Below are positions 8,998 through 61,924 of a stretch of 64,000 nucleotides of DNA, piece after piece; the stretch's first letter is position 1, and each line of letters starts with the position of its first letter. The notes beneath the pieces are model-generated. The model was not told where the DNA came from, ran no database searches, and was given only the letters and a program-made list of their open reading frames with translations. Origin of the DNA: Chloroflexus sp. Y-396-1 (GTDB lineage: Bacteria; Chloroflexota; Chloroflexia; Chloroflexales; Chloroflexaceae); NCBI RefSeq assembly GCF_000516515.1, contig NZ_KI911784.1:310001-374000 (forward strand), in the 5' to 3' direction. The translations under genes and the position numbers were made by a program.

Positions 8998-9074
8998 CTA
9001 CATCAAGTGAAACGTTGCTGATCGTCGCTGCTTCGTAATATGCCGGGCGCTATGTGTCGGCGCAAGGAGAGAGC

Positions 9075-41536: not shown

Positions 41537-41565
41537 ATTATAGCATATTCGCCCAGTTTTGTCAT
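41537..41565 (-). promoter_or_regulatory. Strong sigma-A-type promoter ATGACA-17-TATAAT with TG extension
   Basis: On the minus strand ATGACA (41565-41560) is 17 bases from TATAAT (41542-41537), with TGC just before the -10. Transcription would start near 41530, leaving a leader of about 160 bases before the ATG at 41368. Confidence 0.7.
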
Positions 41566-41651
41566 GCCTTTTTGTTTTTAAATCAAAAAATTGTCTGAAA
41601 AACGCATTTCGGCTGACCGGTATTGTGAGGCATAGCCCCCTACTTTCCCCC

Positions 41652-41689
41652 GCCCCCTTTCCTCTTCCTCTGTGGAAGGGGAAGGGGGG
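41652..41689. repeat. GC-rich imperfect palindrome
   Basis: CCCCCTTTCCTCTTCCTCTG followed by TGGAAGGGGAAGGGGGG. This is another copy of the GC-rich module seen in other spacers of the window. Confidence 0.55.
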
Positions 41690-41691
41690 CA

Positions 41692-41729
41692 TAAAAACAG
41701 GAGGAGCGAGTATCTCTTCGCCCCTCCTG
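41692..41729 (-). terminator. Intrinsic terminator of the giant gene
   Basis: On the minus strand CAGGAGGGGCGAAG and CTCGCTCCTCCTG form a stem with one mismatch and a short loop (41729-41698). TTTTTAT follows directly. It lies 55 bases past the stop codon of the giant repeat gene. Confidence 0.7.
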
Positions 41730-41783: not shown

Positions 41784-44700
41784 TCAGCGCTGAATAATCG
41801 GCACCAGCACCCGATAGGTGAACTGAATCGCCGGACTGATCAAGCTGAATTCATGCCGTTCACCATCTGCTTCGATCTCGACCAGCCAGTAGTGATAGCT
41901 CACATTCGGCTGCGCCGTGCGGTCAAACCACTGGTAGCTGGCGCCACTGCCTGCACTGCCCTGAGCCGGAATTGGTGTGGCGACAATGGGCATAGCATCG
42001 GCGCGATCACCAGTACTACTGCGCAGCAACAGGAAGCCAACTGTGTCGCGCTCACTACCGGTAACCCAGCGCAGCAGCACACCACTTCCCTGGCGCTCGG
42101 CAGTGAAGCTGAGCAGCGTGATGGCGGTTGGCGGCGCCGGTTGATGGATGCCTGCCCACCAGCTTGTATCGGTCTGACCGTACCCTAGCGTGAAGATAGC
42201 TGTCTGCTGCGTATTCGGATCGACATCGCTATCACGGTTGTCGTCACCTCCCTGGTCAGGGGCACTGAATACCCAACCGTTCGGAATTGTAAACGTGAGG
42301 TAGTATTCTCCCGGTGGCAGGTTTGTGAACAGGTAGGAACCGCTACTATCGGTTATTTTTGTATCCACCAGCGTTCCATCAGATCGGTAGAGACTGACGG
42401 TGATTCCACTGACACCCTGTTCTTCTGGGTCGGCAATACCATTCGCATTGATGTCATGCCAGACCCGGTTGCCAATGCTGGCCGGGCGGTAGAGGCCCGC
42501 ATCCCAAGTCAGGTCCACTTCGCCGGACTCGAGCACCGTAGCACTCATAACACCGGTTGAATCGGCGTCGGAGTCGAGTTCGTCGTTCCCCCGATGAACT
42601 GCCGTGAAGACATACCCTGCTGGCGCAACCACCGTCACCGTGTACGTACCCGGCGCCAGGTTCTCGAAGCGGTAAAGGCCATTGCCGTCGGTCACGGCTG
42701 TCCGGCTCATGACCACACCAGCACCAGTTATGCCACTCAACTGCACTGTGACGCCTGCCACCCCCGGCTCACCGGTCTCCTGCACGCCATTGCCGTTGAG
42801 GTCCTCCCAGACGACGTTGCCAATGCTGGCCGGACGGTAGAGGCCCGCATCCCAAGTCAGGTCCACTTCGCCGGACTCGAGCACCGTAGCACTCATAACA
42901 CCGGTTGAATCGGCGTCGGAGTCGAGTTCGTCATTCCCCCGATTAACTACCGTGAAGACATACCCTGCTGGCGCGACCACCGTCACCGTGTACGTCCCCG
43001 GCGCCAGGTTCTCGAAGCGGTAGAATCCATAGTCGTTTGTAACAGCACTAGTATCAATGCTATTCCCATCAATGTCGGTACCGATTAACCGTAACGTAAC
43101 TCCTACCAGTCCCGGTTCACCATCGTCCCGGAGACCATCACCGTCTCGATCTTCCCAGACCAGATCACCGATACTGGCTGGCAAGATCAGTCCGGCATCC
43201 CGTCGATCAACGTCGGTTCCACTCTGCAAGGTAAAGACCGCCGTTGAGCTGTTATTCGGATCAACGTCGGAGTCAGTTGATTCATCACCTCCTGCACCAG
43301 GCCTGGTGAAGCGGCCACCGGTTGGAAGCTCACTGAAGACCAGATAGTAGGTACCGGGTGGCACATCCTCGAACATGTAGAAGCCGTCGCTGTCTGTCCG
43401 TTGAGTAGCGACAACGGTATCGTCGGTTGTGCCAACATTCCCATCGTCTCCCACATCGTAGAGCGTAACCAGCACACCCTCGATCCCCGGTTCACCACCG
43501 TCCTGGATGCCATTCCCGTTCAGGTCGTTCCAGACCCAATCGCCAACCGTTGCCGGACGGAAGATACCGAAATCAACAGTCAGGTTGCTATTGCGGCCAT
43601 CGCCATCGACTGTCGTGTCTGGCTCGGTATCAGGTCGCAGGGTTATCAGGCTACTGATAATGGCCGCATTACTTTGTCGCGTACCGTTATCGTCGTTGTC
43701 GAGATCGCTGTTTACCAGAACACCAGGCTCATACGGCCCGCTAGTCAGCGAGCGAGCGCCGGTGCTGCTACGATAGCCATACCACGGCGAGTCGGCTGCA
43801 AACTGCGTACCCGGCAATACCACAAAGTAGTCACCTTGCGGCAGGTCCGTGAAGCGGTAGAAACCATCACTATCGGTAAGAGCGTTGCCGGCCAGCGTAT
43901 CGGCTTCATCCCATACACCACTTCCATTGCTATCACGGTAGAGCAGAACCTGGATTCCAGCAGCGCCTTGCTCACCGCTATCAACAATACCATTGTTATT
44001 GACATCCTCCCAAACCAGATTCCCCAGACTGAGCAGCTGGTAGAGACCTGCATCGCGACTCAGATCGGTCTGGTTGCTGAGCAGGGTGAAGCTGGCGGTC
44101 TCACCAGTTGCGGTGATCACATCACTATCAGTAGCGTCATCACCACTGCTGTCAGCCGGGCTGAAGGTTAAGCCGGCTGGAATATTCGTGAACTGTAACC
44201 GATACTCGCCGGGCGGCAGACTCGAGAAGATGTATTCGCCATTGTCATCAGTTGTGGTAGTGCGGACGATGTCATCCGCCGTCCCGAACACTCCATCAGG
44301 ACCGGTTCCGGTCAACGTCACTACAATGCCACTGATGCCCGTTTCAGTAGCGCCTTGCACCCCGTCGCCATCCGCATCGAACCAGACCCGGTCGCCAACG
44401 CTGGCCGGGCGGTAGAGGCCCGCGTCCCAAGTCAGGTCCACTTCGCCGGACTCGAGCACCGTGGCGGTCATCACGCCCGTGGTCGGGTCGGCGTCTGAAT
44501 CGGCTGCATCATCACTCCCCTGGTTGGCTGCCGTGATGAGGTACCCTGCTGGCGCGACTACTGTCACCGTGTACGTCCCCGGCGCCAGGTTCTCGAAGCG
44601 GTAAAGGCCATTGCCGTCGGTCACGGCTGTCCGGCTCATGACCACACCAGCGCCAGTTGTGCCACTCAACTGCACTGTGACGCCTGCCACCCCCGGCTCA

Positions 44701-47700
44701 CCGGTCTCTTGCACCCCGTTGCCGTTGAGGTCCTCCCAGACAACGTCGCCAATGCTGGCAAAGCGGTAGAGGCCCGCGTCCCAAGTCAGGTCTACTTCGC
44801 CGGACTCGAGCACCGTGGCGGTCATCACGCCCGTGGTCGGGTCGGCGTCTGAATCGGCTGCATCATCACTCCCCTGGTTGGCTGCCGTGAAGACATACCC
44901 TGCTGGCGCGACCACCGTCACCGTGTACGTCCCCGGCGCCAGATCGTCGAAGCGGTAGAGGCCATTGCCGTCGGTCACGTCTGTCCGGCTCACGACCACA
45001 CCAGCGCCAGTTGTGCCACTCAACTGCACTGTGACGCCTGCCACCCCCGGCTCACCGGTCTCCTGCACGCCGTTGCCGTTGGTATCGAGCCAGACCCGGT
45101 TGCCGATGCTGGCCGCACCAAACAAGCCAGCATCCCAACTCAGATCCTCTTCACCCGAAACCAGCGTCGTTGATGGCATCGCGCCACTGCTATCGGCATC
45201 GGAGTCTCGTGCATCATCACCGCCTTGGTCAGCCACGGTGAATCCATCGCCGGTCGGGGCAATCACCGTGATCGTGTAGGTCCCTGGCGCCAGGGTATCG
45301 AAGCGGTAGAAGCCGGTAATCGTGGTCGTTGCCGTCAGATTGACCGACGTGCCAAAACCGGTCGTGCCACGCAACTGCACCGTGACGTTCGCCACCCCCA
45401 GCTCACCGGTGTCCTGTACGCCGTTGCCGTTCGTATCACGCCAGACCCGGTCGCCAATGCTGGCCGGGCGGTAGAGGCCCGCATCCCAAGTCAGGTCCAC
45501 TTCGCCGGACTCGAGCACCGTGGCGGTCATGACGCCCGTGGTCGGGTCGGCGTCTGAATCCGCTGCATCATCACTCCCCTGGTTGGCTGCCGTGAAGACA
45601 TACCCTGCTGGCGCGACCACCGTCACCGTGTACGTCCCCGGCGCCAGAGTAGCGAACTGATAGAAGCCAGTGATGGTCGTGGTTGCCGTCAAACTGACAG
45701 TCGTGCCTACGCTGGTTATACCGTTCAACCGCACTTCGACGCCTGCCACCCCCGGCTCACCGGTCTCCTGCACCCCGTTGCCGTTGAGGTCCTCCCAGAC
45801 GACGTTGCCAATGCTGGCCGGGCGGTAGAGGCCCGCGTCCCAAGTCAGGTCCACTTCGCCGGACTCGAGCACCGTGGCGGTCATCACGCCCGTGGTCGGG
45901 TCGGCGTCTGAATCGGCTGCATCATCACTCCCCTGGTTGGCTGCCGTGAAGACATACCCTGCTGGCGCGACTACTGTCACCGTGTACGTCCCCGGCGCCA
46001 GGTTCTCGAAGCGGTAGAGGCCATTGCCGTCAGTCACGTCTGTCCGGCTCACGACCACACCAGCGCCAGTTGTGCCACTCAACTGCACCGTGACGCCTGC
46101 CACCCCCGGCTCACCGGTCTCTTGCACCCCGTTGCCGTTGAGGTCCTCCCAGACAACGTCGCCAATGCTGGCAAAGCGGTAGAGGCCCGCGTCCCAAGTC
46201 AGGTCTACTTCGCCGGACTCGAGCACCGTGGCGGTCATCACGCCCGTGGTCGGGTCGGCGTCTGAATCGGCTGCATCATCACTCCCCTGGTTGGCTGCCG
46301 TGAAGACATACCCTGCTGGCGCGACCACCGTCACCGTGTACGTCCCCGGCGCCAGATCGTCGAAGCGGTAGAGGCCATTGCCGTCGGTCACGTCTGTCCG
46401 GCTCACGACCACACCAGCGCCAGTTGTGCCACTCAACTGCACTGTGACGCCTGCCACCCCCGGCTCACCGGTCTCCTGCACGCCGTTGCCGTTGGTATCG
46501 AGCCAGACCCGGTTGCCGATGCTGGCCGCACCAAACAAGCCAGCATCCCAACTCAGATCCTCTTCACCCGAAACCAGCGTCGTTGATGGCATCGCGCCAC
46601 TGCTATCGGCATCGGAGTCTCGTGCATCATCACCGCCTTGGTCGGCCACGGTGAATCCATCGCCGGTCGGGGCAATCACCGTGATCGTGTAGGTCCCTGG
46701 CGCCAGGGTATCGAAGCGGTAGAAGCCGGTAATCGTGGTCGTTGCCGTCAGATTGACCGACGTGCCAAAACCGGTCGTGCCACGCAACTGCACCGTGACG
46801 TTCGCCACCCCCAGCTCACCGGTGTCCTGTACGCCGTTGCCGTTCGTATCGCGCCAGACCCGGTCGCCAATGCTGGCCGGGCGGTAGAGGCCCGCATCCC
46901 AAGTCAGGTCCACTTCGCCGGACTCGAGCACCGTGGCGGTCATGACGCCCGTGGTCGGGTCGGCGTCTGAATCCGCTGCATCATCACTCCCCTGGTTGGC
47001 TGCCGTGATGAGGTACCCTGCTGGCGCGACTACTGTCACCGTGTACGTCCCCGGCGCCAGAGTAGCGAACTGATAGAAGCCAGTGATGGTCGTGGTTGCC
47101 GTCAAACTGACAGTCGTGCCTACGCTGGTTATACCGTTCAACCGCACTTCGACGCCTGCCACCCCCGGCTCACCGGTCTCCTGCACCCCGTTGCCGTTGA
47201 GGTCCTCCCAGACGACGTTGCCAATGCTGGCCGGACGGTAGAGGCCCGCGTCCCAAGTCAGGTCTACTTCGCCGGACTCGAGCACCGTGGCGGTCATGAC
47301 GCCCGTGGTCGGGTCGGTGTCTGAATCCGCTGCATCATCACTCCCCTGGTTGGCTGCCGTGAAGACATACCCTGCTGGCGCGACCACCGTCACCGTGTAC
47401 GTCCCCGGCGCCAGAGTAGCGAACTGATAGAAGCCAGTGATGGTCGTGGTTGCCGTCAAACTGACAGTCGTGCCTACGCTGGTTATACCGTTCAACCGCA
47501 CTTCGACGCCTGCCACCCCCGGCTCACCGGTCTCTTGCACGCCGTTGCCGTTGAGGTCCTCCCAGACAACGTCGCCGATACTGGCGAAGCGGTAGAGGCC
47601 CATATCCCAACTCGGATCGTTATCACCCGATCTGAGCGTAATGATAGTGGTCTGGCGCGAAATCGGATTGACATCGCTATCAGTTGCGTCATTACTCCCT

Positions 47701-50700
47701 TGATCAGGCGTACTGATGGCAAAACCGGTAGGCAGGTTAAAGAGCAAGTAATACTCACCCGGCGCCAAACCACTAAAGCTGTAGTTACCATTGGTATCAG
47801 TGTTGGTAGCAGTAATGAAGACATCATCACCGCCGCCAATTACACCGTTCGGGCCAACGCTGAAGATAGCAACGGCTACACCTGTTACCCCTGTAGTCTC
47901 AACCGCATCCTGGACACCGTTGCCATTCGTATCGAGCCAGACCCGGTCGCCGATGCTGGCTGGACGGTAGAGGCCCGCGTCCCAAGTGTTATCGGTCTGA
48001 TCGCTTACCAGGGTGAAGGTGGCTGTTCGACCGGTTGTCCGGTTCGCGTCCGAGTCGCTCGTATCCGTACCCTGATCGGCCATAGTAAAGACATAGACAG
48101 CGGGCAGGTTACTGAATTCGAGATAGTACGCACCGGGTAGCAGACCGCTGAAGCTGTACGAGCCGCCGCCAGTCGTGGTGACGGAACCAACCGCAGTTCC
48201 GTCGGCTCGATACAGGGTCACGGTTACTCCATCGATCCCATTCTCGCCACTGTCTTGCTGTCCGTTGCCATTGACATCTTCCCAGACGAAGTTGCCAACA
48301 CTGGCCCGATTGAAAACGCCCATATCCCACGTCGGGTCATTATCCCCGGCGTTTAGCGTAATCACAGTGGTGCGGCGCGTAGTTGGATCGGCATCACTAT
48401 CAACGGTGTCATCACTCCCTTGATCGCGTGGGCTGACATCGCTATAGCCAGCCGGTAGCGCGAATTGGAGGTAGTACGACCCGGGGATTAGGTGCGTGAA
48501 GCCGTAAATACCGTTCACGCCAGTTGTTGTGCTCGCCACTAACGTATCGTCACCGCCGCCAATCGCGTTGTCGGGGCCAGCGCTGAATAGTTCAACCACG
48601 ACGCCACTGATCCCGTTCTCTCCACTATCCTGCACGCCATTAGCATTCTGGTCGTGCCAGACCAGATCACCGAGCCGGGCCTGACGGAAGAAACCAAAGT
48701 CAACCGTTAAATTACCGTTCGTGCCGTCGCCGTCAACAGCAACGTCCGGCTCAGTACCGCGGGTGAGAGTGATCGGCGCGCTGTCAACATTACCACTGCC
48801 ACCAGTGGTACCGTTGTCATCATTGTTTATATTGCTATCCGGATCGGGTGCCGCCTCGTAAGAGCCGGTTGCCACGCCGTTGGCTCCGGTGCTGGAAACA
48901 AAGCTGGCCAGGGGCTGCCCGGTTGCGAATTGACTGGCCGGAATGCGCACAATGTAATTCCCCTCGATCAGATCGGTGAAGGTGTACAAGCCGCCGCCCG
49001 ACGTGGTAGTGGAGGCCACAAATTCGCTATCGTCAGCCTGGTTGTTGCCGTTGCTGTCAAGGTAGAGTTCGACCCGTACTCCATCAATACCGGGTTCACC
49101 AACATCAACGATCCCGTTATTGTTCAGATCGTTCCAGACCAGATTACCGAGAGTAAGCGGCTCGAAGAAGCCAAAGTCGAGCGTGAGATTGCCGTTATTC
49201 CCGTCACCATCGGTGGTTGGCTCAAACGATGGATTGAGCGAAATAACACCACTGACAACTCCGTTGATCGTGTCGGTACCGTTGTCATCATTGTCTACAT
49301 TGTTATCCGGATCGGGTGCTGGCTCATAAGGCCCAGTTGCGGATCCATTGCTACCGGTGCTTGAGCGATGGCGATAGAGAGGCTGACCAGCAGCGAAGTT
49401 GCTGGCCGGAATGACCACAATGTAGTCACCCTGCTCCAAACCGCTGAAGAGATAGGCACCGTTGCCATCCGTCGTTGTGAAGGTAACAAACTCTCCTGAA
49501 TCGGCCTGGCCATTACCGTTGCTATCGCGGTATAGCTCAACCCGCACGTTGGGAATACCGCTCTCGCCACTGTCAACGACACCGTTGTCGTTGGCATCGT
49601 ACCAGACCAGATTACCCAGCGTGAGACGCGGATAGAGGCCAAGATCCCAACTCAGATCATTATTATTGGTGTTGCCAAGTGTGATATTGGCTGTTCGCAA
49701 GGTTGTCGGATTGACATCTGAGTCGGCTGTATCATTACTACCCTGATCAGACGGACTGACGGCATACTGAGCAGGAATGTCACTGAAGACCAGATAGTAA
49801 GTACCGGAAATCAGGTATCTGAACAGATAGCTAGTGGCTGCCGCGACTGACGTGCGGGTGATCGGCTGGATTCCAGGTGTATTCGGATCGCCATCAAGCG
49901 GCTGGTTGGTTGCGGCATTGTAGATTGTGACTGTGACCCCAGCGATGTCAGTCGTCTCACCACCATCCTGAATGCCATTCCCATTCGCATCCAGCCACAC
50001 CCGGTCACCAATCTGACCTTCATCGAACAGACCAAAGTCAATGGTCAGATTACTGTTCGCATCAATAGCCGGATTGGTCACACCATAGGGCATGGTTATA
50101 TCGGGTTCGCCAGTGGGCATCATCCCAACGCGCACCGTAAAGACAGCGCTGCGCTCGTTGTTTCCATTCGCCGTACCGTTGTCATCATTATCAACCGTGC
50201 TGGCGTCGGGATCAGGTGCCGGTTCGTAGGGGCCGGTAGCCATACCATTAATACCGGTGCTCGACACATTATTAGCATTCGAGACCAATTCTACAACGTA
50301 ATTTCCGCCATCACGGAGGCCACCAAACAGGTAACGACCGCCGTTACTGGTCGTCGTGGTAATGACGGCTGTCGCTTCACTACCATCTAGTACGCCATTG
50401 CCATCGGCATCGTAGAACAAGCGCATCTCTCTACCGTTGACATATCCGGTACTTGCATCTCCAGCATCAAACACGCCATTGTTGTTGTAATCGAGCCAGA
50501 CCCGATTCCCAATCGTCAAGCTGTAGAAGCCGAAATCAACGGTCAGGTTCGTATTGCTATCACCATCTTCGTCGGTTGGCTCACCACCGAGGCTGAGCGT
50601 TACTGCTGCGCTGCGAACGAGATCGGTTGCAGCGCCGGTCACAACCCCCACGTTCGGTCCGATACCATTGTCATCGCCGTCAGTGTCGGTATCGGGATCA

Positions 50701-53700
50701 GCGGCGCTATCGTTGGCGTTCCCACCATCGCTGCTGCGGAAGAAGCGTAAGGCGCCACCACTGGCAAAGTTGTTGGCCGGAATGACGACCAGATAATCAC
50801 CAGGTACCAGGTTGTCAAAGCGGTAATTCCCGCCACCACTGGTGGTAGTCGTTGCCACCAGCGTATCGGTACCGGCATCATAGCTACCGTTACCATTCAC
50901 ATCGCGGTAGAGTTGGACAACGACACCATTGATGCCCGGTTCACCCGAATCAACAGTGCGATCATTGTCGTAGTCGTGCCAGACCAGGTTGCCCAACGCT
51001 AGCGGGCGGAAGAAGCCAAAGTCGAGCGTGAGATTGCCGTTATTCCCGTCACCATCGGTGGTTGGCTCGTCTTGTGAGCGCAGGGTGATAATGTCAGAAA
51101 GGATATTACCGCTACCATCATCAGTACCGTTATCGTCATTATCAATGTTGTTATCAGGGTCTGGTGCCGCCTCGTAAGGACCGGTTGCACTTCCCACGGT
51201 ACCCGTGCTCGAACGGAACGCGGGCTGTGTACCACTCGGCCCCAGCGTCTGACCAGTGTTGAAGTTACTCGCCGGAATCTCGACCAGATAGTTGCCCGGA
51301 TCGAGGTTGGGGAAGCTGTAGAAGCCGCCACCGGAGGTTACGGTTGATGCGATGGGTGTATCTTCGCCGGAGTCAATCGTGCCATTACGATCTGTGTCGC
51401 GGTAAAGATTGACCGTTACCCCATCAATCCCATTCTCGCCAGCATCGAGCAGGCCATTATTGTTGACGTCATTCCAGACCCGATTACCCAGATTGACAAG
51501 CTGGTACAGACCGGCGTCCCAGGTCAGGTCTTCCTGACCGACAGATAGTGTAGTGAGGCTGGTAAAGCCGCTTGTCCTATCAGGATCGCTGTCAGTTGCA
51601 TCATTACCGCCCTGATCTTGCGGACTACGGACATAGCCGGTCGGTAGGCCAAAGCCCAGATAGTAGTTACCTGGAATGAGATAGCTGAAACCGTAGTTTC
51701 CACTGGCATCAGTAGTGGTGGTCGCCACCAGGGTATCACCAGTACTCGGCTGACCATCACCATTCGTATCGTAAAAGAGTTGGACCGTCACGCCACCGAT
51801 ACCGGTCTCGTCACCACCATTCTGCACACCGTTAGCATCGCGGTCAAACCAGACCAGATTCCCGATCTGGGCCGGTCGGAAAAGACCGAAGTCAACGGTC
51901 AGGTTGCTGTTTTCGTTGCGCGCCGGGTCAGTAAGTGCAGCAGGTAACGGATCGCTCTCACCGGTTGGTTCACTATTGGGCCGCAAACGCACAATGGTGC
52001 TCCGCACCACACTACCGCTTTGGGTACCGTTATCATCACTGTCAGTCGCGTCGGTATCAGCATTGGGCGCCGGTTCATACGGCCCGCTGGTGCTCCCGTT
52101 CGTGCCGGTGCTCGACACATAACCTGCCGGTAAGACCACTTCTACCAGATAGTCGCCCTGCACCAGACCACTGAACAGGTAGTAGCCACCGTGGTTCGTC
52201 GTGGTTGTAGCGACTGGCGTCGTCTCACCGCTATCGTTCACATCACCATCGCCATTGAGATCACGGTAGAGATGTACCATAACGCCATCAATACCAAACT
52301 CACCCGTGCTGAGTTGACCGTCGTTATTGGTATCTTCCCACACCCGATTACCCAACGACAGAAGCTGGTAGAGACCGGCATCCCAGGTCAGATCATTCTC
52401 GCCTGACTCGAGATCAATCGTGATTGTGGTCGCTGTCGCGCTCACACCGGTCGGCACGTCGGAGTCCGTAGCATCGGTCGCTGCCGGTGCATCGCCGACG
52501 GTGAAGGCGTAGCCATTAGGCCGCGTGAATCGCACACGGTAGAGGCCGGGTTGCAGATTCGTAAAGCTATATGCGCCGCTGCCATTGGTCGTTGCGGTTG
52601 CCAATGTATCATCAGATGTGCCGAAAGTGCGGTCACGTCCGGCGCCGATCAGCGCTACAGCAACATTGGCAAAACCGGGTTCACCCGTCTCTTGCACACC
52701 GTTCCCGTTCAGGTCTTCCCAGACGAAATCGCCCAGGTTAGCCGGAATAACCAGACCTGCATCCCACGTTAGATCGGTCTCACCCGAATCAAGCGTCGTC
52801 GCGATCATAACGCCTGACGCATCAGCATCACTATCATTGGCATCATTCGCTCCGGCAACTTCGGTTGCTGTTATATCGCGATAGGTGAAGACTTCGCCGG
52901 TCGGTGCAGTGACGGTTATCTGGTATGTGCCCGGTACCAGATTGGTAAAGCTGTAGAAACCACCACCTGACGTCGTGATTGTCTGATTAACAAGGGCGCC
53001 ACTACCGGTTGTACCAGTTAGTGTCACTGTAACATTATCAAGTCCCGTTTCACCGGTATCTTGCACCCCATTGCCGTTCGTATCGCGCCAGACCCGGTCG
53101 CCAATCGTTGCCGGACGGTACAGACCGGCGTCCCAGGTCAGGTCTTCCTCACCCGATTCGAGGGTTGTCGTGGCCATCACACCAGCACCGTTGGCATCCG
53201 AATCGCCGCTATCGTCACCCTGATCGGCTGCGGTGAAGAAGTAACCGGCTGGAGCAGTGACGGTAATGGTATAACTACCCGGTGTGAGATCGTTGAACAG
53301 ATAGAAACCGTTACTGTCAGTTTGGGCCGTCTGCGACACCGGATCGCCCGCACCGGTCGTACCGTTCAGGGTCACTGTGACATTCGCGATAGCCGGCTCG
53401 CCAGCATCCTGGCGACCATTGCCGTTACGGTCTTCCCAGACGAAGTTGCCAATGCGGGCCAACCGGTAGAGACCAAGGTCGTATTGCAGATTATCCCCTG
53501 ATACCGGCGTGAACGGCGCTGTCTCAAAGGTAACATTGGCATCGCTATCGAGCTGATCGTTCCCACCCCGATCCTGCGGACTACGCACATAGCCGGTTGG
53601 GATTTCGCTGAAGCGAATGCGGTAGGTATCGGGGAAGAGGTTGGTGAACCGGTAGAGACCAGTGCTGTCGGTGTACGTGTAATCGAGCACGACACCATCA

Positions 53701-56700
53701 CTGTCGCGCAACAGCTCAACGCGCACACCAGGAATGCCGGTCGTCTCATCTGTATCCTGGATACCATCGGCATCCCGATCAAGCCAGACCCGATCGCCAA
53801 CAGTGATCGTCTCAAAGATACCGGCATCAACCGTGAGATTGTTATCGCCTGAATTCAGCCGCACGATCCCGGTACGACCGTCGGTCGGATTGGCGTCACT
53901 ATCGGCTGTATCATCACTACCCTGATCCAGCCGGGTGAAGGAGCGGTTGGCCGGTAGGTTACTGAAAACTACATAGTATTCACCTGGCGCGAGATCGGTG
54001 AAGAGGTATTCACCATTGGTATTAGTCGTCTGGGTCACAACGAGCGTACCATTTATGGTATAGAGTGCCACCGTGACCCCACTAACCCCACTCTCGCCAG
54101 CATCTTGAATCCCATCAACATCACTGTCAAACCAGACCCGATTCCCCAGGCTGGCCGGATTCAGCACACCCATGTCAAGAGAACGGTTTGACGTACCGGA
54201 GAGTAGTTCGACAATGGGAGTGCGCAGGTTCGCATCTACATCGCTGTCGGTCTCGTCGGTCGCAACGGCGGCATCACGCGGGCTGAGCAGACTGTAACCG
54301 GATGCAGCACTAAACTGAACGAAATACCGACCTGGTTGCAAACCGGTAAAGAGGTATTCACCGCTACCATTTGTTGTTGCCGAAGTAACCAGGACATCAT
54401 CGGCCGTTCCGGCGATACCGTCAGCCCCAGGCCGGTACAGCGAAACCGATACATTCGCCACGCCAGGCTCGCCGCTATCCTGCCGCCCATTACCGTTCAC
54501 ATCGTGCCAAACCCGATCACCGAGGCTGGCCAATTGATACAAGCCGAGATCCCAACGCAGATCGTTTTCGCCAGCACTCAAGGTTGTAGTCACTGTCTGG
54601 AACGTTGACGGATCAACGTCTGAGTCGGCATTGTCATTACCGCCCTGATCCTGTGGACTGACAATATAACTGGCAGGAACAACGAACCGCAGATAGTAAT
54701 TACCGGCCAGCAGATTCTCGAAGCGGTAGAAACCATCGGCATCGGTCACAGTAGTATTCAGCGGATTACCGGCGCTATCGTACAGTACAACCTGTACACC
54801 TGGGATGCCAGCCGTCTCGCTCGCATCCTGGATACCATCCGCGTTGTCATCGCGCCAGACCCGATCACCGATACTGGCCGTTGGCACAATCCCAAAATCC
54901 CAGTTTGGATCGTTCTCGCCCGGATCAAGCGTTGTCGCCACGGTCTGCCGGGTTACCGGATCGGCATCGCTATCGCGGGTGTCATCGCTCCCTTGGTTCT
55001 GCGGACTGGCGCGATAACCAGTGGGCAGACCAAACTCGACATAGTAATCGCCGGGTACCAGATTGGTGAACGTATAGAGACCGCTGCTGTTCGTAGTTGT
55101 GGTTGCCACCGGCACGCTGCTGCCAGGCCGGTAGAGACGAACCTGCACCCCACCGACACCCGGTTCGCCAGCATCTTGAATCCCGTTGTTGTTGGTATCG
55201 CGCCAGACCAAATCGCCGATTGAAGCGAACACGAACAGGCCCATATCCCAGTTGGGATCATTCTCGCCCGGCGCCAGATCGATCAGAGCGGTGCGACGAG
55301 TCGTTAGATCGGCATCACTATCAGCCGTATCATCACTTCCTTGATCGGTTGCAGTGAGAGCGTAACCGGTCGGCGGCGAACCAAATTGCACAAAGTAGCG
55401 ACCGGGTGGCAGATTGGCAAAGCTGTAGAGACCACTGGTGTCGGTTGTATTTGTAGCCACCAGTTCATCATCAGCCGTACCGGCCACACCATCGTAGCCA
55501 GGGCGATAGAGGCGCACCTCAACGCCACCGACGCCAGGTTCACCAGCATCTTGCACACCGTCGTAATCGAGATCGTTCCAGACCCGATCACCAACACCGG
55601 CCAGCAACGCAACCAGACCGGCATCCCAGCTCAGATCGGTCTGATTGGCGGTCAAGGTGATGACCGGCGTCAATCCACTAGCGTCAACATCACTATCCAG
55701 ATCGTTGTTCGTACCCTGATCAGCAGTCGTAAAGCTATAGCCAGCAGGTAGATTGCTAAACCGTACACGATAAGTACCGACGTTCAAACCGGTAAACCCG
55801 TAACGACCAGCACCATCGGTCACGGTGATCGTCGGCTGTACACCGGCTGTACCCGGATCACTATCAATCGGATTGCCACTACCATCGAGCAATTCAACAG
55901 TGATACCGGCTACACCTGGCTCACCGGCATCCTGAATCCCGTTACTGTTCGTATCAAACCAAACCCGATCGCCCAGGGCTGCCCCTCTGATAAAGCCGAA
56001 ATCGAGAGTCTGATTACCATTTGCATCATCACCATCAGCCGTCGGCTCTCCACCAACCGACAGGGTGATCGGCGACGAGCGAACGCTTCCGCCGATCAGG
56101 GTTCCGTTATCATCATGATCGACATCAGTATCAGGATCGGGCGCCGGATCGTTACCACTACTCGAACGCATTCCGTGCAACACACCACCGGGCGTAAAGT
56201 TATCATCGTCAATCACTACGATGTAATTACCGGCGGCCAGATTGGTAAACTGATAATACCCGGCCTCACCACCGACCGTACTAGTCGTCGCACCGGCAAC
56301 ATATTCTCCGGTATCGGGGATACCGTTATTGTTCACATCACGGAACAGGCTTAGACGCACCCCATCAATACCAGATTCGCCACTTGCCGGCTCATAGCGA
56401 CCGTCATTGTCACGGTCGTACCAGACCCGATTACCGAGACGCAGGTTCCCGGTTGGCACCACCAACCCGGCATCGCGACTGCGATCAAGCTGGTTAGCAG
56501 CCAGCGTGAAGAAACCGGTCCGTCCGGTTGTTGGATCAGCGTCAGAATCCTGGTTATCGTTACTCCCGCTGTCTGCCGTTGTAAAGGTGAAGCCGGTTGG
56601 CAAAACAAACTCAACGAAGTAGCTACCAGCACTCAGCCCACTAAAGAGGTAATACCCCGGATTACCGAGCAGATCATCGGCAGTGACAGTAGTCGCAATC

Positions 56701-59700
56701 AGAGTACCGCTGTTGTTATACAGCCGCACGGTAATCCCGTTGACCCCATCAGAAGGCGGCTCATCCTGGATACCATTCCGATTGCGATCAATCCAGACAT
56801 AATCGCCAACTGCGGTGACGGTCACCAATCCCACATCCCAGCTATCATCATTTTCACCGGAGGTAAGGTTTGTGACCGCACTGTAGCGCGAGGTCGGGTT
56901 AATATCCGAGTCGCGAGCATCGTCACCACCCTGATCAGGCGTTGTAAAACCATACCCGGCCGGTGGTGTGACCCGAATGTAGTAATCACCAGGAGGAATG
57001 TCATCAGGATCAGAGAAGAGATAGTAACCGGGGTTACCATCATTATCGGGGCCAGAGATCGTAAACCCGACCCAGCGGTCACCGGCGCTTGGCCCGGCAA
57101 CACCATCACTGTCCTGGTAGAAATCGATCCGTGCACCATTCACCCCAGTTTCGCCAGGGTCTTGCACACCGTTGAGGTCGGCGTCTAACCAGACGTAATT
57201 CCCATACGAAGGCGGAATGACCGGTCCTCGCCTAATTCCTACCCGTGGCGGTTCAGCAGCCAGCAATGGATTGCCATAAATGTCAAAGGCGCGATAGCCG
57301 AAGCTATTCCACGCAATCTGACCGGGGTCGCCACCCAGCGGCGCCCGCATCGGCCACGTAATCACAATCGAATCTTGGGGATAAAGAATGCGGCTGCCGA
57401 AATCAATTCGTACCGAACGTACCGTCGTTATGTCAGTCGGTAATGTGGTTGACCACTGCGGATCGACACAACCGGGCGCATCGATCGGGTTACCGCTGGA
57501 GTCGGTCAGACCGAGGTCGGGATTGCGACATGGATTGTTCGTTGTACTGTAATAGACGGTTGCCCCATCGGGTACAGCAATAGGGCCGGCCAAATACGGC
57601 TGCCACTGGCTTTCACGCGGCTGATTGAAGCGCACGACACCAACATCACCGACCCACGGCAAAATATCGATTAATACCAGATTGGTTAAGGGAACGGAGT
57701 TGGTATTAGTAATGATCAGCCGATAATCGGCCATACCACCGGGTGTAGTCATACCGGTATAGGGATCGCGCGTCCATTCGGTATCGAGTTGGCCGAGCAC
57801 CCACTTCGCCGAGCTAGCCGTCGCCGCTGCCGCCAGGCTAAGGCTGGTAATCGAGGATGAACAGATCAGTTCACTGATATTGCCATCGCTATCAAAATCA
57901 TGACTGTCAGGCGCTTGTTGAGAACATTGATCGATAAAAATCTGACCGGGCGGATTGGCAAAACTGGCTAACGACGCAGTATTGGCGATGGTACCGGTCA
58001 CCGTAGCCGGATCGATCTGGGCCTGGAAGCGAATCGTAAAGGAAGCATTCGGCGGTAAATTATAGCCCGACCAACGCCAACGCAGCAAAGTACGACCGGT
58101 ACCGTTGTAGTTGTCAATCACATCCAACATCGGATCGGGGGCGCCGGTCGGCTTCGATACCACGACTGAACTGCCAGCAACGTAGCGCAGACTCTCTACT
58201 AACAGATCGGCCAAAACCGGATCAACCAGACCGGCGCTAACACTACCGAGCTGGTTGTTTTCCAGTGTAATCGTGTACGTAACAGTATCACCAGCATAGG
58301 CTACCGCCGGATCCACCGACTTCATCACAACCGCACGAGAGCCTGGCTCGATGATCCGTGTGCGAGCTTCATCAACCCGCGTGGCAGTATACCCGTTGTA
58401 AGTGAAGGTGCTAGTCGCCTGATTAACCACGACCGCATTCACCGGCACTGCGGTCACCACAGCACTGAAATTATGTCCAGTTGCGCTAAATCCAAACGGC
58501 AACGGATCGAGGTAGCGCCAGCGAATAGCAGTAATCCGTTCGCCAGCACCGAGGGTCAGCGTACTACAGCCACCACCCGAGGCTGGGGCAATGTTCACGC
58601 AGCTTGTCGTTGTAAACGTACCAACCGAGGTAAAGGTGGAATTCACATTTGTCGTATACGCCAGCTCAACCCGCACACCGGCAATATTCCCACCAGCCAC
58701 CGTGATCCGCGTCACCTCCAACTCAGGTGGCACTGGATCGGTTACCACGACATCATTCAATGGCGTAGTACCGGTGTTAATAGTATTGAAGGTATAGGTC
58801 ACGGTATCACCCACCAATGCCGAGGTGGGGCCATTCTTGGTAAACCCATACCCTGGCGTTGGCGGCTGGATCCGTCGTACATCATCATCGGTCAACGTGA
58901 TTGTCGCCGAATCGGCCTGGGCAGAGACATTCATCACATTGCGCACTTCAGTACCGACGGGAAACGAAGCCGAGGGGAAGATAACCGTCACCGTGCGAGT
59001 TGCGCAGAGATTGTTTGGCACCGTTAGACTGGTCGCCGGCCAGGTGACCGTATTGGTACCACTATTAAAGGTACCGCCATCAGAAGCACTCACAAACGTA
59101 GCCCCTGCCGGCAACGCATCGTCAATCTGCACGTTGGTTAGATTCAGCGCGCCCGAACCATTATCTGGAATACAAACCTGAAGCTGATATGTGGTCGGCA
59201 CATCAGGCGCACCACCCGACACAAACGTCTTTTCGGCAACAGCACGCGGCTCAGCGCGGGCGGTAATAGTCAACAAATTTGACAAATTCGGCGGCGCTGT
59301 AGTCGAACGCATCTCGGCCCGCAGCGTAGCCGTTGTTCCGTCAGGGGTTGTCCCAGCCGGAAAACGTACCCGCAATTCGAGCCGTCCGGTATCACCCGCA
59401 GCTAATGGTGAATTGAACGTCCATGTCACAGTGCGGGTGGTCGGATTGTACGAAGGCGAGGTTCCGGCACCGAGCGCCTGTATATCACCGGTGCCACCAG
59501 CCAGCTCTGGCGGTATGACTACGGTAACAGTCGCATTTTCACAAGGCGTATTGAGCACGCTCGAACAACTATAATCAACGTTAATCACCGACCAGTCACC
59601 GCTGTTGACCACTGGAAAGTTAGTACTAAGCATTACATTGACAGTGGCATTAGCCAGGACTACATCAGGTCGCAGACCAATGAAAGCCACGGCGAAGATC

Positions 59701-59750
59701 AGTAATAAACTGAGTAATGAACGACGAGCTACGATGCGGTAGTACAACAT
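41784..59750 (-). CDS. Giant secreted SdrD/Cna-B-repeat surface protein (about 5,988 residues)
   Basis: A single uninterrupted frame of about 18 kb. The start at 59750 has GAGG eight bases upstream and leads into a signal peptide (SLLSLLLIFAVAFIGL, cleavage likely near VLANA). Residues of about 40-850 are DUF11-like domains (VGDTVTYTFNTINTGTTPLN). Then come 39 SdrD/Cna-B-like repeats by my count, averaging about 129 residues. Each opens with a variant of IGDRVW-x-D-x-N-x-NG-x-QD-x-GE and holds G-x-Y-x-F-x-x-L-x-PG-x-Y. Most then have DSD-x-D-P-x-T and a closing WDAGLY. The Asp/Asn loops resemble calcium sites. A C-terminal domain (TLLSFTAERQGSGVLLRWVT) is followed by the end RVLVPIIQR. There is no LPXTG, membrane anchor or catalytic motif. 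It is likely a very long calcium-stiffened fibre on the cell surface. It is monocistronic. Confidence 0.92.
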   Translation of the reverse strand: MLYYRIVARRSLLSLLLIFAVAFIGLRPDVVLANATVNVMLSTNFPVVNSGDWSVINVDYSCSSVLNTPCENATVTVVIPPELAGGTGDIQALGAGTSPSYNPTTRTVTWTFNSPLAAGDTGRLELRVRFPAGTTPDGTTATLRAEMRSTTAPPNLSNLLTITARAEPRAVAEKTFVSGGAPDVPTTYQLQVCIPDNGSGALNLTNVQIDDALPAGATFVSASDGGTFNSGTNTVTWPATSLTVPNNLCATRTVTVIFPSASFPVGTEVRNVMNVSAQADSATITLTDDDVRRIQPPTPGYGFTKNGPTSALVGDTVTYTFNTINTGTTPLNDVVVTDPVPPELEVTRITVAGGNIAGVRVELAYTTNVNSTFTSVGTFTTTSCVNIAPASGGGCSTLTLGAGERITAIRWRYLDPLPFGFSATGHNFSAVVTAVPVNAVVVNQATSTFTYNGYTATRVDEARTRIIEPGSRAVVMKSVDPAVAYAGDTVTYTITLENNQLGSVSAGLVDPVLADLLVESLRYVAGSSVVVSKPTGAPDPMLDVIDNYNGTGRTLLRWRWSGYNLPPNASFTIRFQAQIDPATVTGTIANTASLASFANPPGQIFIDQCSQQAPDSHDFDSDGNISELICSSSITSLSLAAAATASSAKWVLGQLDTEWTRDPYTGMTTPGGMADYRLIITNTNSVPLTNLVLIDILPWVGDVGVVRFNQPRESQWQPYLAGPIAVPDGATVYYSTTNNPCRNPDLGLTDSSGNPIDAPGCVDPQWSTTLPTDITTVRSVRIDFGSRILYPQDSIVITWPMRAPLGGDPGQIAWNSFGYRAFDIYGNPLLAAEPPRVGIRRGPVIPPSYGNYVWLDADLNGVQDPGETGVNGARIDFYQDSDGVAGPSAGDRWVGFTISGPDNDGNPGYYLFSDPDDIPPGDYYIRVTPPAGYGFTTPDQGGDDARDSDINPTSRYSAVTNLTSGENDDSWDVGLVTVTAVGDYVWIDRNRNGIQDEPPSDGVNGITVRLYNNSGTLIATTVTADDLLGNPGYYLFSGLSAGSYFVEFVLPTGFTFTTADSGSNDNQDSDADPTTGRTGFFTLAANQLDRSRDAGLVVPTGNLRLGNRVWYDRDNDGRYEPASGESGIDGVRLSLFRDVNNNGIPDTGEYVAGATTSTVGGEAGYYQFTNLAAGNYIVVIDDDNFTPGGVLHGMRSSSGNDPAPDPDTDVDHDDNGTLIGGSVRSSPITLSVGGEPTADGDDANGNQTLDFGFIRGAALGDRVWFDTNSNGIQDAGEPGVAGITVELLDGSGNPIDSDPGTAGVQPTITVTDGAGRYGFTGLNVGTYRVRFSNLPAGYSFTTADQGTNNDLDSDVDASGLTPVITLTANQTDLSWDAGLVALLAGVGDRVWNDLDYDGVQDAGEPGVGGVEVRLYRPGYDGVAGTADDELVATNTTDTSGLYSFANLPPGRYFVQFGSPPTGYALTATDQGSDDTADSDADLTTRRTALIDLAPGENDPNWDMGLFVFASIGDLVWRDTNNNGIQDAGEPGVGGVQVRLYRPGSSVPVATTTTNSSGLYTFTNLVPGDYYVEFGLPTGYRASPQNQGSDDTRDSDADPVTRQTVATTLDPGENDPNWDFGIVPTASIGDRVWRDDNADGIQDASETAGIPGVQVVLYDSAGNPLNTTVTDADGFYRFENLLAGNYYLRFVVPASYIVSPQDQGGNDNADSDVDPSTFQTVTTTLSAGENDLRWDLGLYQLASLGDRVWHDVNGNGRQDSGEPGVANVSVSLYRPGADGIAGTADDVLVTSATTNGSGEYLFTGLQPGRYFVQFSAASGYSLLSPRDAAVATDETDSDVDANLRTPIVELLSGTSNRSLDMGVLNPASLGNRVWFDSDVDGIQDAGESGVSGVTVALYTINGTLVVTQTTNTNGEYLFTDLAPGEYYVVFSNLPANRSFTRLDQGSDDTADSDANPTDGRTGIVRLNSGDNNLTVDAGIFETITVGDRVWLDRDADGIQDTDETTGIPGVRVELLRDSDGVVLDYTYTDSTGLYRFTNLFPDTYRIRFSEIPTGYVRSPQDRGGNDQLDSDANVTFETAPFTPVSGDNLQYDLGLYRLARIGNFVWEDRNGNGRQDAGEPAIANVTVTLNGTTGAGDPVSQTAQTDSNGFYLFNDLTPGSYTITVTAPAGYFFTAADQGDDSGDSDANGAGVMATTTLESGEEDLTWDAGLYRPATIGDRVWRDTNGNGVQDTGETGLDNVTVTLTGTTGSGALVNQTITTSGGGFYSFTNLVPGTYQITVTAPTGEVFTYRDITATEVAGANDANDSDADASGVMIATTLDSGETDLTWDAGLVIPANLGDFVWEDLNGNGVQETGEPGFANVAVALIGAGRDRTFGTSDDTLATATTNGSGAYSFTNLQPGLYRVRFTRPNGYAFTVGDAPAATDATDSDVPTGVSATATTITIDLESGENDLTWDAGLYQLLSLGNRVWEDTNNDGQLSTGEFGIDGVMVHLYRDLNGDGDVNDSGETTPVATTTTNHGGYYLFSGLVQGDYLVEVVLPAGYVSSTGTNGSTSGPYEPAPNADTDATDSDDNGTQSGSVVRSTIVRLRPNSEPTGESDPLPAALTDPARNENSNLTVDFGLFRPAQIGNLVWFDRDANGVQNGGDETGIGGVTVQLFYDTNGDGQPSTGDTLVATTTTDASGNYGFSYLIPGNYYLGFGLPTGYVRSPQDQGGNDATDSDPDRTSGFTSLTTLSVGQEDLTWDAGLYQLVNLGNRVWNDVNNNGLLDAGENGIDGVTVNLYRDTDRNGTIDSGEDTPIASTVTSGGGFYSFPNLDPGNYLVEIPASNFNTGQTLGPSGTQPAFRSSTGTVGSATGPYEAAPDPDNNIDNDDNGTDDGSGNILSDIITLRSQDEPTTDGDGNNGNLTLDFGFFRPLALGNLVWHDYDNDRTVDSGEPGINGVVVQLYRDVNGNGSYDAGTDTLVATTTTSGGGNYRFDNLVPGDYLVVIPANNFASGGALRFFRSSDGGNANDSAADPDTDTDGDDNGIGPNVGVVTGAATDLVRSAAVTLSLGGEPTDEDGDSNTNLTVDFGFYSLTIGNRVWLDYNNNGVFDAGDASTGYVNGREMRLFYDADGNGVLDGSEATAVITTTTSNGGRYLFGGLRDGGNYVVELVSNANNVSSTGINGMATGPYEPAPDPDASTVDNDDNGTANGNNERSAVFTVRVGMMPTGEPDITMPYGVTNPAIDANSNLTIDFGLFDEGQIGDRVWLDANGNGIQDGGETTDIAGVTVTIYNAATNQPLDGDPNTPGIQPITRTSVAAATSYLFRYLISGTYYLVFSDIPAQYAVSPSDQGSNDTADSDVNPTTLRTANITLGNTNNNDLSWDLGLYPRLTLGNLVWYDANDNGVVDSGESGIPNVRVELYRDSNGNGQADSGEFVTFTTTDGNGAYLFSGLEQGDYIVVIPASNFAAGQPLYRHRSSTGSNGSATGPYEPAPDPDNNVDNDDNGTDTINGVVSGVISLNPSFEPTTDGDGNNGNLTLDFGFFEPLTLGNLVWNDLNNNGIVDVGEPGIDGVRVELYLDSNGNNQADDSEFVASTTTSGGGLYTFTDLIEGNYIVRIPASQFATGQPLASFVSSTGANGVATGSYEAAPDPDSNINNDDNGTTGGSGNVDSAPITLTRGTEPDVAVDGDGTNGNLTVDFGFFRQARLGDLVWHDQNANGVQDSGENGISGVVVELFSAGPDNAIGGGDDTLVASTTTGVNGIYGFTHLIPGSYYLQFALPAGYSDVSPRDQGSDDTVDSDADPTTRRTTVITLNAGDNDPTWDMGVFNRASVGNFVWEDVNGNGQQDSGENGIDGVTVTLYRADGTAVGSVTTTGGGSYSFSGLLPGAYYLEFSNLPAVYVFTMADQGTDTSDSDANRTTGRTATFTLVSDQTDNTWDAGLYRPASIGDRVWLDTNGNGVQDAVETTGVTGVAVAIFSVGPNGVIGGGDDVFITATNTDTNGNYSFSGLAPGEYYLLFNLPTGFAISTPDQGSNDATDSDVNPISRQTTIITLRSGDNDPSWDMGLYRFASIGDVVWEDLNGNGVQETGEPGVAGVEVRLNGITSVGTTVSLTATTTITGFYQFATLAPGTYTVTVVAPAGYVFTAANQGSDDAADSDTDPTTGVMTATVLESGEVDLTWDAGLYRPASIGNVVWEDLNGNGVQETGEPGVAGVEVRLNGITSVGTTVSLTATTTITGFYQFATLAPGTYTVTVVAPAGYLITAANQGSDDAADSDADPTTGVMTATVLESGEVDLTWDAGLYRPASIGDRVWRDTNGNGVQDTGELGVANVTVQLRGTTGFGTSVNLTATTTITGFYRFDTLAPGTYTITVIAPTGDGFTVADQGGDDARDSDADSSGAMPSTTLVSGEEDLSWDAGLFGAASIGNRVWLDTNGNGVQETGEPGVAGVTVQLSGTTGAGVVVSRTDVTDGNGLYRFDDLAPGTYTVTVVAPAGYVFTAANQGSDDAADSDADPTTGVMTATVLESGEVDLTWDAGLYRFASIGDVVWEDLNGNGVQETGEPGVAGVTVQLSGTTGAGVVVSRTDVTDGNGLYRFENLAPGTYTVTVVAPAGYVFTAANQGSDDAADSDADPTTGVMTATVLESGEVDLTWDAGLYRPASIGNVVWEDLNGNGVQETGEPGVAGVEVRLNGITSVGTTVSLTATTTITGFYQFATLAPGTYTVTVVAPAGYVFTAANQGSDDAADSDADPTTGVMTATVLESGEVDLTWDAGLYRPASIGDRVWRDTNGNGVQDTGELGVANVTVQLRGTTGFGTSVNLTATTTITGFYRFDTLAPGTYTITVIAPTGDGFTVADQGGDDARDSDADSSGAMPSTTLVSGEEDLSWDAGLFGAASIGNRVWLDTNGNGVQETGEPGVAGVTVQLSGTTGAGVVVSRTDVTDGNGLYRFDDLAPGTYTVTVVAPAGYVFTAANQGSDDAADSDADPTTGVMTATVLESGEVDLTWDAGLYRFASIGDVVWEDLNGNGVQETGEPGVAGVTVQLSGTTGAGVVMSRTAVTDGNGLYRFENLAPGTYTVTVVAPAGYLITAANQGSDDAADSDADPTTGVMTATVLESGEVDLTWDAGLYRPASVGDRVWFDADGDGVQGATETGISGIVVTLTGTGPDGVFGTADDIVRTTTTDDNGEYIFSSLPPGEYRLQFTNIPAGLTFSPADSSGDDATDSDVITATGETASFTLLSNQTDLSRDAGLYQLLSLGNLVWEDVNNNGIVDSGEQGAAGIQVLLYRDSNGSGVWDEADTLAGNALTDSDGFYRFTDLPQGDYFVVLPGTQFAADSPWYGYRSSTGARSLTSGPYEPGVLVNSDLDNDDNGTRQSNAAIISSLITLRPDTEPDTTVDGDGRNSNLTVDFGIFRPATVGDWVWNDLNGNGIQDGGEPGIEGVLVTLYDVGDDGNVGTTDDTVVATQRTDSDGFYMFEDVPPGTYYLVFSELPTGGRFTRPGAGGDESTDSDVDPNNSSTAVFTLQSGTDVDRRDAGLILPASIGDLVWEDRDGDGLRDDGEPGLVGVTLRLIGTDIDGNSIDTSAVTNDYGFYRFENLAPGTYTVTVVAPAGYVFTVVNRGNDELDSDADSTGVMSATVLESGEVDLTWDAGLYRPASIGNVVWEDLNGNGVQETGEPGVAGVTVQLSGITGAGVVMSRTAVTDGNGLYRFENLAPGTYTVTVVAPAGYVFTAVHRGNDELDSDADSTGVMSATVLESGEVDLTWDAGLYRPASIGNRVWHDINANGIADPEEQGVSGITVSLYRSDGTLVDTKITDSSGSYLFTNLPPGEYYLTFTIPNGWVFSAPDQGGDDNRDSDVDPNTQQTAIFTLGYGQTDTSWWAGIHQPAPPTAITLLSFTAERQGSGVLLRWVTGSERDTVGFLLLRSSTGDRADAMPIVATPIPAQGSAGSGASYQWFDRTAQPNVSYHYWLVEIEADGERHEFSLISPAIQFTYRVLVPIIQR
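42140..57215 (-). repeat. Array of 39 SdrD/Cna-B-like domain repeats
   Basis: These repeats lie inside the giant gene. N-terminal repeats are diverged from each other. Repeats around 25-33 (about 43.9-47.6 kb) are nearly identical in places, indicating recent local expansion. A few repeats are enlarged by 20-40 residues with an extra EPTxDGD-type loop. Confidence 0.85.
44404..47229 (-). repeat. 1,413-bp tandem duplication of four domains
   Basis: Positions 44404-45816 and 45817-47229 match base for base over long stretches. Between 44965-45279 and 46378-46692 I find one difference (A45231 against G46644). The period of 471 codons spans four repeats. Small patches (for example 44530-44545 against 45943-45958) have been exchanged with other repeats. 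Confidence 0.85.
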
Positions 59751-59916
59751 AGGTATAGCCTCAGATATCAACTACATATTTCGGCGACAGCCGAAGTACG
59801 ACCGAATGGTCAAAAAACAGTATATGCCTTCGGCGAACCAGCGCATTACCATTACCAGCAATGTTGGGCAATTGTTGCACCGATCTCAGCATCGGTACTG
59901 CGGAGCACGCTTGGTG

Positions 59917-61912: not shown

Positions 61913-61924
61913 AACGGTATTGAT

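Follow-up and report, generated by a model that had tools for sequence, protein, structure and literature searches.

A predicted giant surface fibre of SdrD_B domains in Chloroflexus with lysine almost confined to putative isopeptide sites

A single 18-kb open reading frame (ORF), open at 41784-59750 on the minus strand of a 64,000-nucleotide stretch of Chloroflexus sp. Y-396-1 (the window, positions 310001-374000 of a source genome consisting of one 4.89-Mb contig), encodes a protein of 5,988 residues, hereafter the giant. We consider it probable that this frame specifies a Sec-exported, non-membrane fibrillar surface protein, stiffened by Ca2+, bearing a cross-linked head and held by its C-terminus. 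Its domains and their layout are of known kinds, its size is no record and its tail is catalogued; what is unusual, as judged from the sequence, is their combination together with a lysine content limited almost entirely to predicted isopeptide sites, a feature conserved across the genus. The protein would be well suited to the question of why a surface protein should avoid amines, and it supplies a specific candidate for the external layer that cryo-electron tomography (cryo-ET) shows on Chloroflexus filaments.

Gene, architecture and relatives

The frame contains no internal stop, and GAGG lies eight bases upstream of its ATG (Table 1). Signal-peptide and transmembrane calls are by our own heuristics, and ORFs were called by length without a gene finder; by these heuristics the giant carries a signal peptide and has no transmembrane segment. 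A sequence-only reading of this DNA had proposed a single frame of about 5,988 residues with a signal peptide and DUF11 domains, all of which were borne out. Rfam gave no match and no tRNA was found.

Table 1 Features of the giant and of two other tail-bearing proteins in the window
Feature	Position	Strand	Details
Whole coding sequence	41784..59750	-	ATG 59750, 5,988 aa (TTG 59771 possible, 5,995 aa); stop 41784-41786
Signal peptide, ~aa 1-33	59652..59750	-	MLYYRIVARRSLLSLLLIFAVAFIGLRPDVVLA; cleavage site by eye; passes signal-peptide heuristic
N-terminal head, aa 34-849	57204..59651	-	DUF11/DUF7507 domains; four Lys-Asp-Asn triads; all 10 cysteines
Stalk, aa 850-5875	42126..57203	-	39 SdrD_B repeats (115-167 aa); Asp/Asn loops; one Lys (5798); no Cys
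Repeats 25-33, recent growth zone	44397..47576	-	26-29 vs 30-33 near-identical; GC3 0.69-0.77
C-terminal domain, aa 5876-5980	41811..42125	-	FN3-like by eye only
C-terminal tail VLVPIIQR	41787..41810	-	YLP-box-like by pattern
Secreted-like 1,256-aa protein ending VWIPLVVN	9054..12824	+	same tail kind; outside fibre
Secreted-like 1,722-aa CSLREA/choice-of-anchor T protein ending VFIPIVAR	12836..18004	+	same tail kind; outside fibre

Searching with the head, we found matches in 18 of 41 genomes (own genome included) at E <= 1e-5 and in 13 at E <= 1e-80, with one genome, G024 in our numbering, just below the stricter level. The giant family is present in seven of the eight Chloroflexus genomes and missing from G002, an 82% complete draft. 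Four of these genomes (G003, G005, G006 and G007), two of them single-contig, contain the same single frame, spanning 5564, 5540, 5580 and 5578 codons from stop to stop and 5505, 5517, 5576 and 5574 codons from the start codon. Assembly collapse or artefactual fusion of several genes had been named as a finding that would undo the initial reading. Although a near-identical block within the frame could mask an error in copy number, orthologs of similar length in other assemblies lead us to reject this explanation as extremely improbable.

That block consists of repeats 26-29 and 30-33, which are identical at 1397 of 1413 bases, and repeats 25-33 as a whole have no one-to-one match to the relatives. 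Repeats 1-22, on the other hand, are each best matched by the equally numbered repeat, in unbroken order, in G005 and G007, as are 21 of the 22 in G006, while in G003 the order is kept with one pair merged. Given ordered repeats 1-22 and recent copies at 25-33, the front of the stalk is conserved and its growth zone lies towards the C-terminus. The GC content at third codon positions (GC3) is 0.69-0.77 in repeats 25-33 and 0.72 in repeat 38, which is of the same type, against 0.48-0.65 in the other 29 repeats. The rise of GC and GC3 over this zone is weaker in the same part of G003 and G005, and none is clear in G006 and G007; biased gene conversion is one possible cause of the raised GC in the duplicated repeats.

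A stalk of calcium-type SdrD_B domains

The stalk is built from 39 repeats, each opening with the motif G[DN]xVWxD (starts from aa 850 to aa 5760). All 39 match PF17210 (SdrD_B) above its curated cut-off in the frame of the giant, and the remaining 18 of the 57 rows returned by the genome search belong to different reading frames of the genome. The loop D-x-[DN]-x-[DN]-[GR] occurs in 39/39 repeats, as expected from the calcium-type Asp/Asn loops noted earlier, and in the alignment of the repeats V4, W5, D7 and D100 are among the invariant columns, with G12, E18 and D98 nearly so. The stalk is also strongly acidic (net charge -525).

Structure prediction of the repeats, which the sequence-only reading had suggested as a check, gave a confident AlphaFold2 (AF2) model of repeats 9-11, with a mean predicted local distance difference test score (pLDDT) of 94.8 and a predicted template modelling score of 0.80. 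The input alignment comprised 33 further three-repeat stretches taken from the giant itself (34 of 37 possible stretches in all). The best match in the PDB was the A2-A3-B1-B2 region of Staphylococcus aureus SdrD (10ps; Foldseek E 3.6e-23, Z 19.5), together with SdrD B1 (8vdk, Z 19.4; 4jdz, Z 19.2, 114 residues at 1.3 A), UafA (Z 18.1), the TIE protein (Z 13.3) and CnaB domains of pilins (Z about 8-10). For repeats 9-11 the modelled fold is that of an SdrD B domain, and a profile of the 39 repeats picks out SdrD and UafA by sequence too. NF012181, the model for MSCRAMM SdrD with a cut-off of 2500, was scanned against two pieces of the giant and gave 442 bits for the C-terminal 1,072-residue piece and 13 for the N-terminal 917-residue piece.

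The repeats are SdrD_B and not true Cna-B domains, so only half of the original label 'Cna-B/SdrD-like' stands, the count of 39 with it. PF05738 (Cna_B) was listed once (E 4.7e-6) in six pieces scanned. An isopeptide-locked Cna-B stalk, with a Lys-(Glu)-Asn triad in every domain, is rejected, as 38 of the 39 repeats have no lysine. Bonds formed through a lysine are predicted in some SdrD_B domains by an isopeptide survey (PMC12617251). With lysine missing from 38 of the 39 stalk domains and cysteine from all of them, the 38 cannot form isopeptide bonds and none can form disulfides, and the stalk would have to rely on Ca2+. The SdrD B domains bind Ca2+, and the B domains of such adhesins reportedly become less resilient mechanically in its absence (PMC12407086), which makes a Ca2+-stiffened rod the natural reading. 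The loop motif in every repeat suggests that the repeats of the giant may bind Ca2+ as well.

The giant shares with SdrD of S. aureus, an MSCRAMM, the fold of its stalk domains, the Asp/Asn loops and the layout of a head on a stalk of B repeats. It differs in having 39 B domains where SdrD has B1-B5 (PMC12407086), a DUF11 head in place of the adhesin A domain, no LPXTG and almost no lysine. The adhesin of Mobiluncus mulieris is likewise a giant single-chain rod of Ig-like domains (7,651 residues, 51 domains), each of them cross-linked by an ester, isopeptide, disulfide or thioester bond (PMC10619420), whereas 38 of the 39 stalk domains considered here could form neither isopeptide nor disulfide bonds. 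That published length also qualifies the earlier statement that the giant exceeds most known surface proteins, which may hold, although the giant sets no record. The prediction of a long secreted fibre of calcium-type SdrD_B domains is, by contrast, well supported by the sequence and the three-repeat model, in agreement with the long extracellular fibre first proposed.

A head with four predicted isopeptide domains

The DUF11 profile matches the head with 76.5 bits (cut-off 24.6) in three stretches. Within the head we assigned four Lys-Asp-Asn triads, pairing the residues by eye from their order and motif: K174-D211-N271, K305-D338-N443, K477-D515-N590 and K649-D695-N815. All 12 residues are invariant in 11 of 11 aligned heads, namely that of the giant and ten others (G001, which is cut, G013, which is split, and G024 were left out). 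In the third domain the invariant acid is D515 of the motif LADLL, while D510 varies. The ten cysteines of the giant all lie in the head, and five other Chloroflexus ORFs also have ten. A sequence search of the PDB with the head gave no match at E <= 1.

The triads correspond to the Lys-Asp-Asn signature of CnaA-like isopeptide domains, and we predict bonds on this basis. The same triads are found in the DUF11 'CLIPPER' domains, of which one with Lys715-Asp748-Asn806 has been solved; its bond confers thermal and protease stability, although some DUF11 domains have no isopeptide bond (PMC12617251). The Lys-to-Asp distances in the head (37, 33, 38 and 46) fit the range of 33-56 given for contiguous CnaA-like domains, with 33 in the DUF11 structure 9IFR, whereas among the Lys-to-Asn distances (97, 138, 113 and 166) the last exceeds 147, the largest contiguous value noted from the same publication (PMC12617251). 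In the giant, unlike in CLIPPER proteins, such domains cap a lysine-free SdrD_B stalk, and their bonds are predictions from sequence.

Lysine is almost excluded from the stalk

Over its 5,026 residues the stalk has one lysine (residue 5798). The longest lysine-free run in the giant extends for 5,148 residues; the next longest among 706 ORFs, sampled from 864 kb of the source genome (the window plus 40 stretches), is 1,036. The stalks of G003, G005, G006 and G007 (4,424-4,497 residues from the first to the last repeat start) contain no lysine, nor does a 537-residue piece of the G004 stalk. In seven ORFs from other genera, some of them incomplete, the stalks have 0-28 lysines. Counted from the start codon, whole proteins have four (G003), five (G005), four (G006), four (G007) and six (source genome) lysines. 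In G003, G006 and G007 all four lysines of about 5,500 residues are the triad lysines, and for the five Chloroflexus species together this holds for 20 of 23.

At the nucleotide level, the lysine codons AAA and AAG occur once in the frame of the stalk, compared with 62 and 33 occurrences in the two alternative frames of that strand. Because these triplets are scarce only in frame, the exclusion operates at the protein level. The stalk is also poor in histidine (0.24% against 1.46% in secreted-like ORFs, that is, signal-peptide, transmembrane-free ORFs), cysteine is absent, and tryptophan is kept (1.39% against 1.58%). Loss of nucleophilic side chains from the stalk goes beyond lysine, which is its most extreme case.

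We propose tentatively, as a possibility that falls a little short of an even chance, that this is an amine-free fibre: selection would have removed lysine from about 5,000 surface residues and spared the four that are consumed in autocatalytic isopeptide bonds. If so, the mature fibre would offer almost no side-chain amines to sortases, thioester or aldehyde chemistry, cross-linking enzymes or lysine-specific proteases. Alternatively, the composition could have drifted, with a lysine-poor ancestral repeat copied many times. The secreted-like ORFs of the source genome are indeed lysine-poor (mean 1.49%, n = 69 with the giant excluded, against 2.16% in 636 others), six other tail-bearing secreted-like ORFs have 0.70%, and repeats 25-33 are recent copies. 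Yet repeats 1-24 are free of lysine although 23 of them share just 43-62% identity with their closest paralog, and the remaining one 66%; the in-frame scarcity of AAA and AAG and the lysine-free stalks of four more species likewise speak against drift alone, and another SdrD_B locus of the source genome does contain lysine. We regard drift as an unlikely explanation.

A YLP-box-like tail at the C-terminus

The sequence-only reading had correctly seen that the giant ends without LPXTG or a membrane anchor, but had overlooked a short tail shared with other proteins. The sortase anchor features (LPXTG, transmembrane helix, basic tail) are absent from the C-terminus, and although the source genome has four sortases, we reject LPXTG/sortase anchoring for want of such a signal. 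Anchoring by SLH domains is rejected too, since the genome has no SLH match at E <= 0.001. The C-terminal domain has a relative at one other place in the genome (45% identity); it gave no Pfam match at E <= 1, and the best sequence match in the PDB had E 0.48. This relative is carried by a tail-bearing DUF11-like ORF at about 2.685 Mb, where an LPXTG-type protein (LPRTGG, hydrophobic stretch, RR) lies beside it (L010:1-1857 and 1872-3323), so that both kinds of surface end adjoin.

The last residues of the giant, RVLVPIIQR, belong to a motif that we derived from three window proteins in the strict form [VILFYMW][VILFM]P[VILF][VILFYA]x[RKN]. In the sample, the strict tail ends 6 of 70 secreted-like ORFs and none of 636 others (3/64 against 0/607 with the window left out, P 0.0008), and a looser form ends 10/70 against 0/636. 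A DNA form of the tail (terminal Arg plus stop) occurs 37 times in the source genome and 9 times in a reversed control. All 37 were examined: 15 end ORFs of at least 150 residues, of which 13 have a signal peptide (12 by the heuristic within the locus, plus the giant, whose N-terminus falls outside that locus). In G030, from another family, all 31 matches were examined as well; they end 23 such ORFs, 20 of them with a signal peptide. With membrane proteins counted in, the heuristic has a base rate of 200/600. The window's largest frame carries a YLP-box-like tail of a kind that is statistically tied to secretion in two genera.

The DNA pattern exceeds its reversed control in eight Chloroflexus genomes (212 against 69) and in five genomes of genus g23 (129 against 37). 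No excess appears in six genomes of genus g20, family f3 (101 against 136), nor for the phylum outside the order, where 107 genomes together give 300 against 418, seven of them having at least six matches and twice the control. The tail is thus lineage-limited. Sortases were present in all six genomes tried, including genus g20, and so do not track the tail. Among giant-family ORFs that reach a stop, 6 of 7 others have it. Because the preceding sequence varies between proteins, being Pro/Thr-rich in some, the tail looks like a module rather than the last strand of one domain.

We reject the idea that the motif is undescribed, since NCBIfam catalogues it as the 'YLP-box putative sorting motif' (NF050076, and the shorter NF053834, 'ultrashort_CTERM'), in a description that names no machinery. 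Six of ten tail-bearing C-termini match these models, though weakly, at their last residues (E 0.009-0.17), five above the cut-off of NF053834 and one above that of NF050076; four do not match. Searched in 41 genomes, NF053834 gave no hit at E <= 0.001; at E <= 10 it matched 4/4 genomes (18, 12, 24 and 12 places) but also 11 of 14 controls, and is uninformative alone. The giant's tail resembles the YLP-box in its extreme C-terminal place on a secreted protein and in its pattern of hydrophobic-P-hydrophobic followed by R. On sequence likeness, the end of the giant points to a catalogued putative sorting motif, which narrows the attachment route, initially described as unknown, without solving it, the giant's own tail going unscored by the models.

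A secreted-like protein with BamB/PQQ-type repeats at 22413-24578 of the window carries VYLPLVFRD (24336-24362) just after its signal peptide and not at its C-terminus; this motif near the N-terminus scores 14.4 bits to NF053834.

Proposed assembly and role

We envisage that Sec exports the giant by means of its signal peptide and that, outside the cell, the head domains would close isopeptide and disulfide bonds, using up the four conserved lysines. Ca2+ would occupy the loops of the 39 stalk domains and stiffen the rod, while the C-terminal domain and its tail, as a divergent YLP-box, may act as a surface retention or export handle. We favour retention because the tail is group-wide and other anchors are absent. 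The head would then sit at the far end, facing outward, as in MSCRAMM-type stalks, and the number of repeats would shift by tandem duplication near the C-terminal end. The fibre would most likely serve in filament-filament or mat adhesion, or form part of the external coat, which is 30-50 nm thick.

Cryo-ET of C. aggregans describes this coat as a 30-50 nm amorphous external layer without an S-layer, and regards Tad pili as the main candidate for motility; neither key lipopolysaccharide genes nor bamA could be identified in the strains imaged, which include C. aggregans, and the outer layer is described as enigmatic (PMC7332563). This leads us to expect a non-standard route of anchoring. No literature on the giant or the tail was found among the top results in the open-access literature: two Chloroflexus papers (PMC9316378 and PMC3150298) yielded no surface-adhesin passage by term search, and the passage retrieved from PMC1569441 merely names C. 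aurantiacus in a table.

Several observations weigh against a straight, C-terminally held rod. (i) Dimensions. A straight rod of 39 domains would measure well over 100 nm and exceed the layer seen by cryo-ET. (ii) Models. Foldseek TM-scores of the three-repeat model are at most 0.39 among the 50 matches listed, because the arrangement of the domains differs even though single domains match, and AF2 failed to model the C-terminal domain with its tail (pLDDT below 50 for model residues 267-345). (iii) The tail. The YLP-box models miss the tail of the giant, two other window tails and three ortholog tails at E <= 10, HMMER filters dropping matches this short; the giant is absent from the 18 NF053834 places of its own genome; and the G024 ORF, on a draft contig, stops mid-domain without a tail. 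Because some secreted proteins carry the motif internally or close to their start, a role as C-terminal sorting signal does not follow; it could be a terminal signal or a docking strand.

Two other accounts of the role have to be weighed. In the first, the protein is a structural coat, many copies lying tangled or flat to form the amorphous layer, without a specific binding partner. Such a layer without an S-layer exists in C. aggregans (PMC7332563), and a huge acidic protein that is full-length in the source and four other Chloroflexus genomes would suit it; however, a conserved, non-repetitive head argues for more than filler, and the layer of R. castenholzii is particularly dense (PMC7332563), yet G030, presumed to be Roseiflexus, has no head match. 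We think a purely structural coat rather improbable. In the second, the protein is released rather than anchored, as a matrix or mat glue, and the tail is an export or folding signal. This would accord with the missing LPXTG, transmembrane and SLH features and with a short motif that is sometimes internal or N-terminal, but the tail is kept in nearly all orthologs that reach a stop, and its restriction, when terminal, to secreted-like ORFs in the sample is as compatible with retention as with export. Release seems doubtful to us, and a retained, outward-facing fibre remains the preferred reading.

Neighbouring genes and other elements

Flanks were compared in G003, G005, G012 and G033, along with what lay within the other loci. 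Neighbours of the giant are kept on both sides in G003 and G005, on the 3' side in G006 and G007 and on the 5' side in G012, which belongs to another genus; none of the window neighbours was found in the 10-kb 5' flank of G033. The divergent neighbours at 60317-63999, named by reading, are a PucC-like major facilitator superfamily transporter, a methyltransferase, a small membrane protein and a dehydrogenase resembling BchC. They adjoin the giant in G003 and G005 too, and all except the methyltransferase do so in G012.

Another SdrD_B gene of the source genome (G000:C1:4685807-4693484) appears to be split over two overlapping frames of 823 and 1,743 residues (L091:5816-8287 and 8253-13484). 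Its sister repeats read through the split point, which suggests a frameshift, a sequence error or a pseudogene. Three stretches of the window (6843-7343, 40943-41692 and 59806-60058) would encode short peptides rich in Pro/Leu/Cys or Gly/Arg, which recur within 6843-7343, and are perhaps copies of a dispersed intergenic repeat element.

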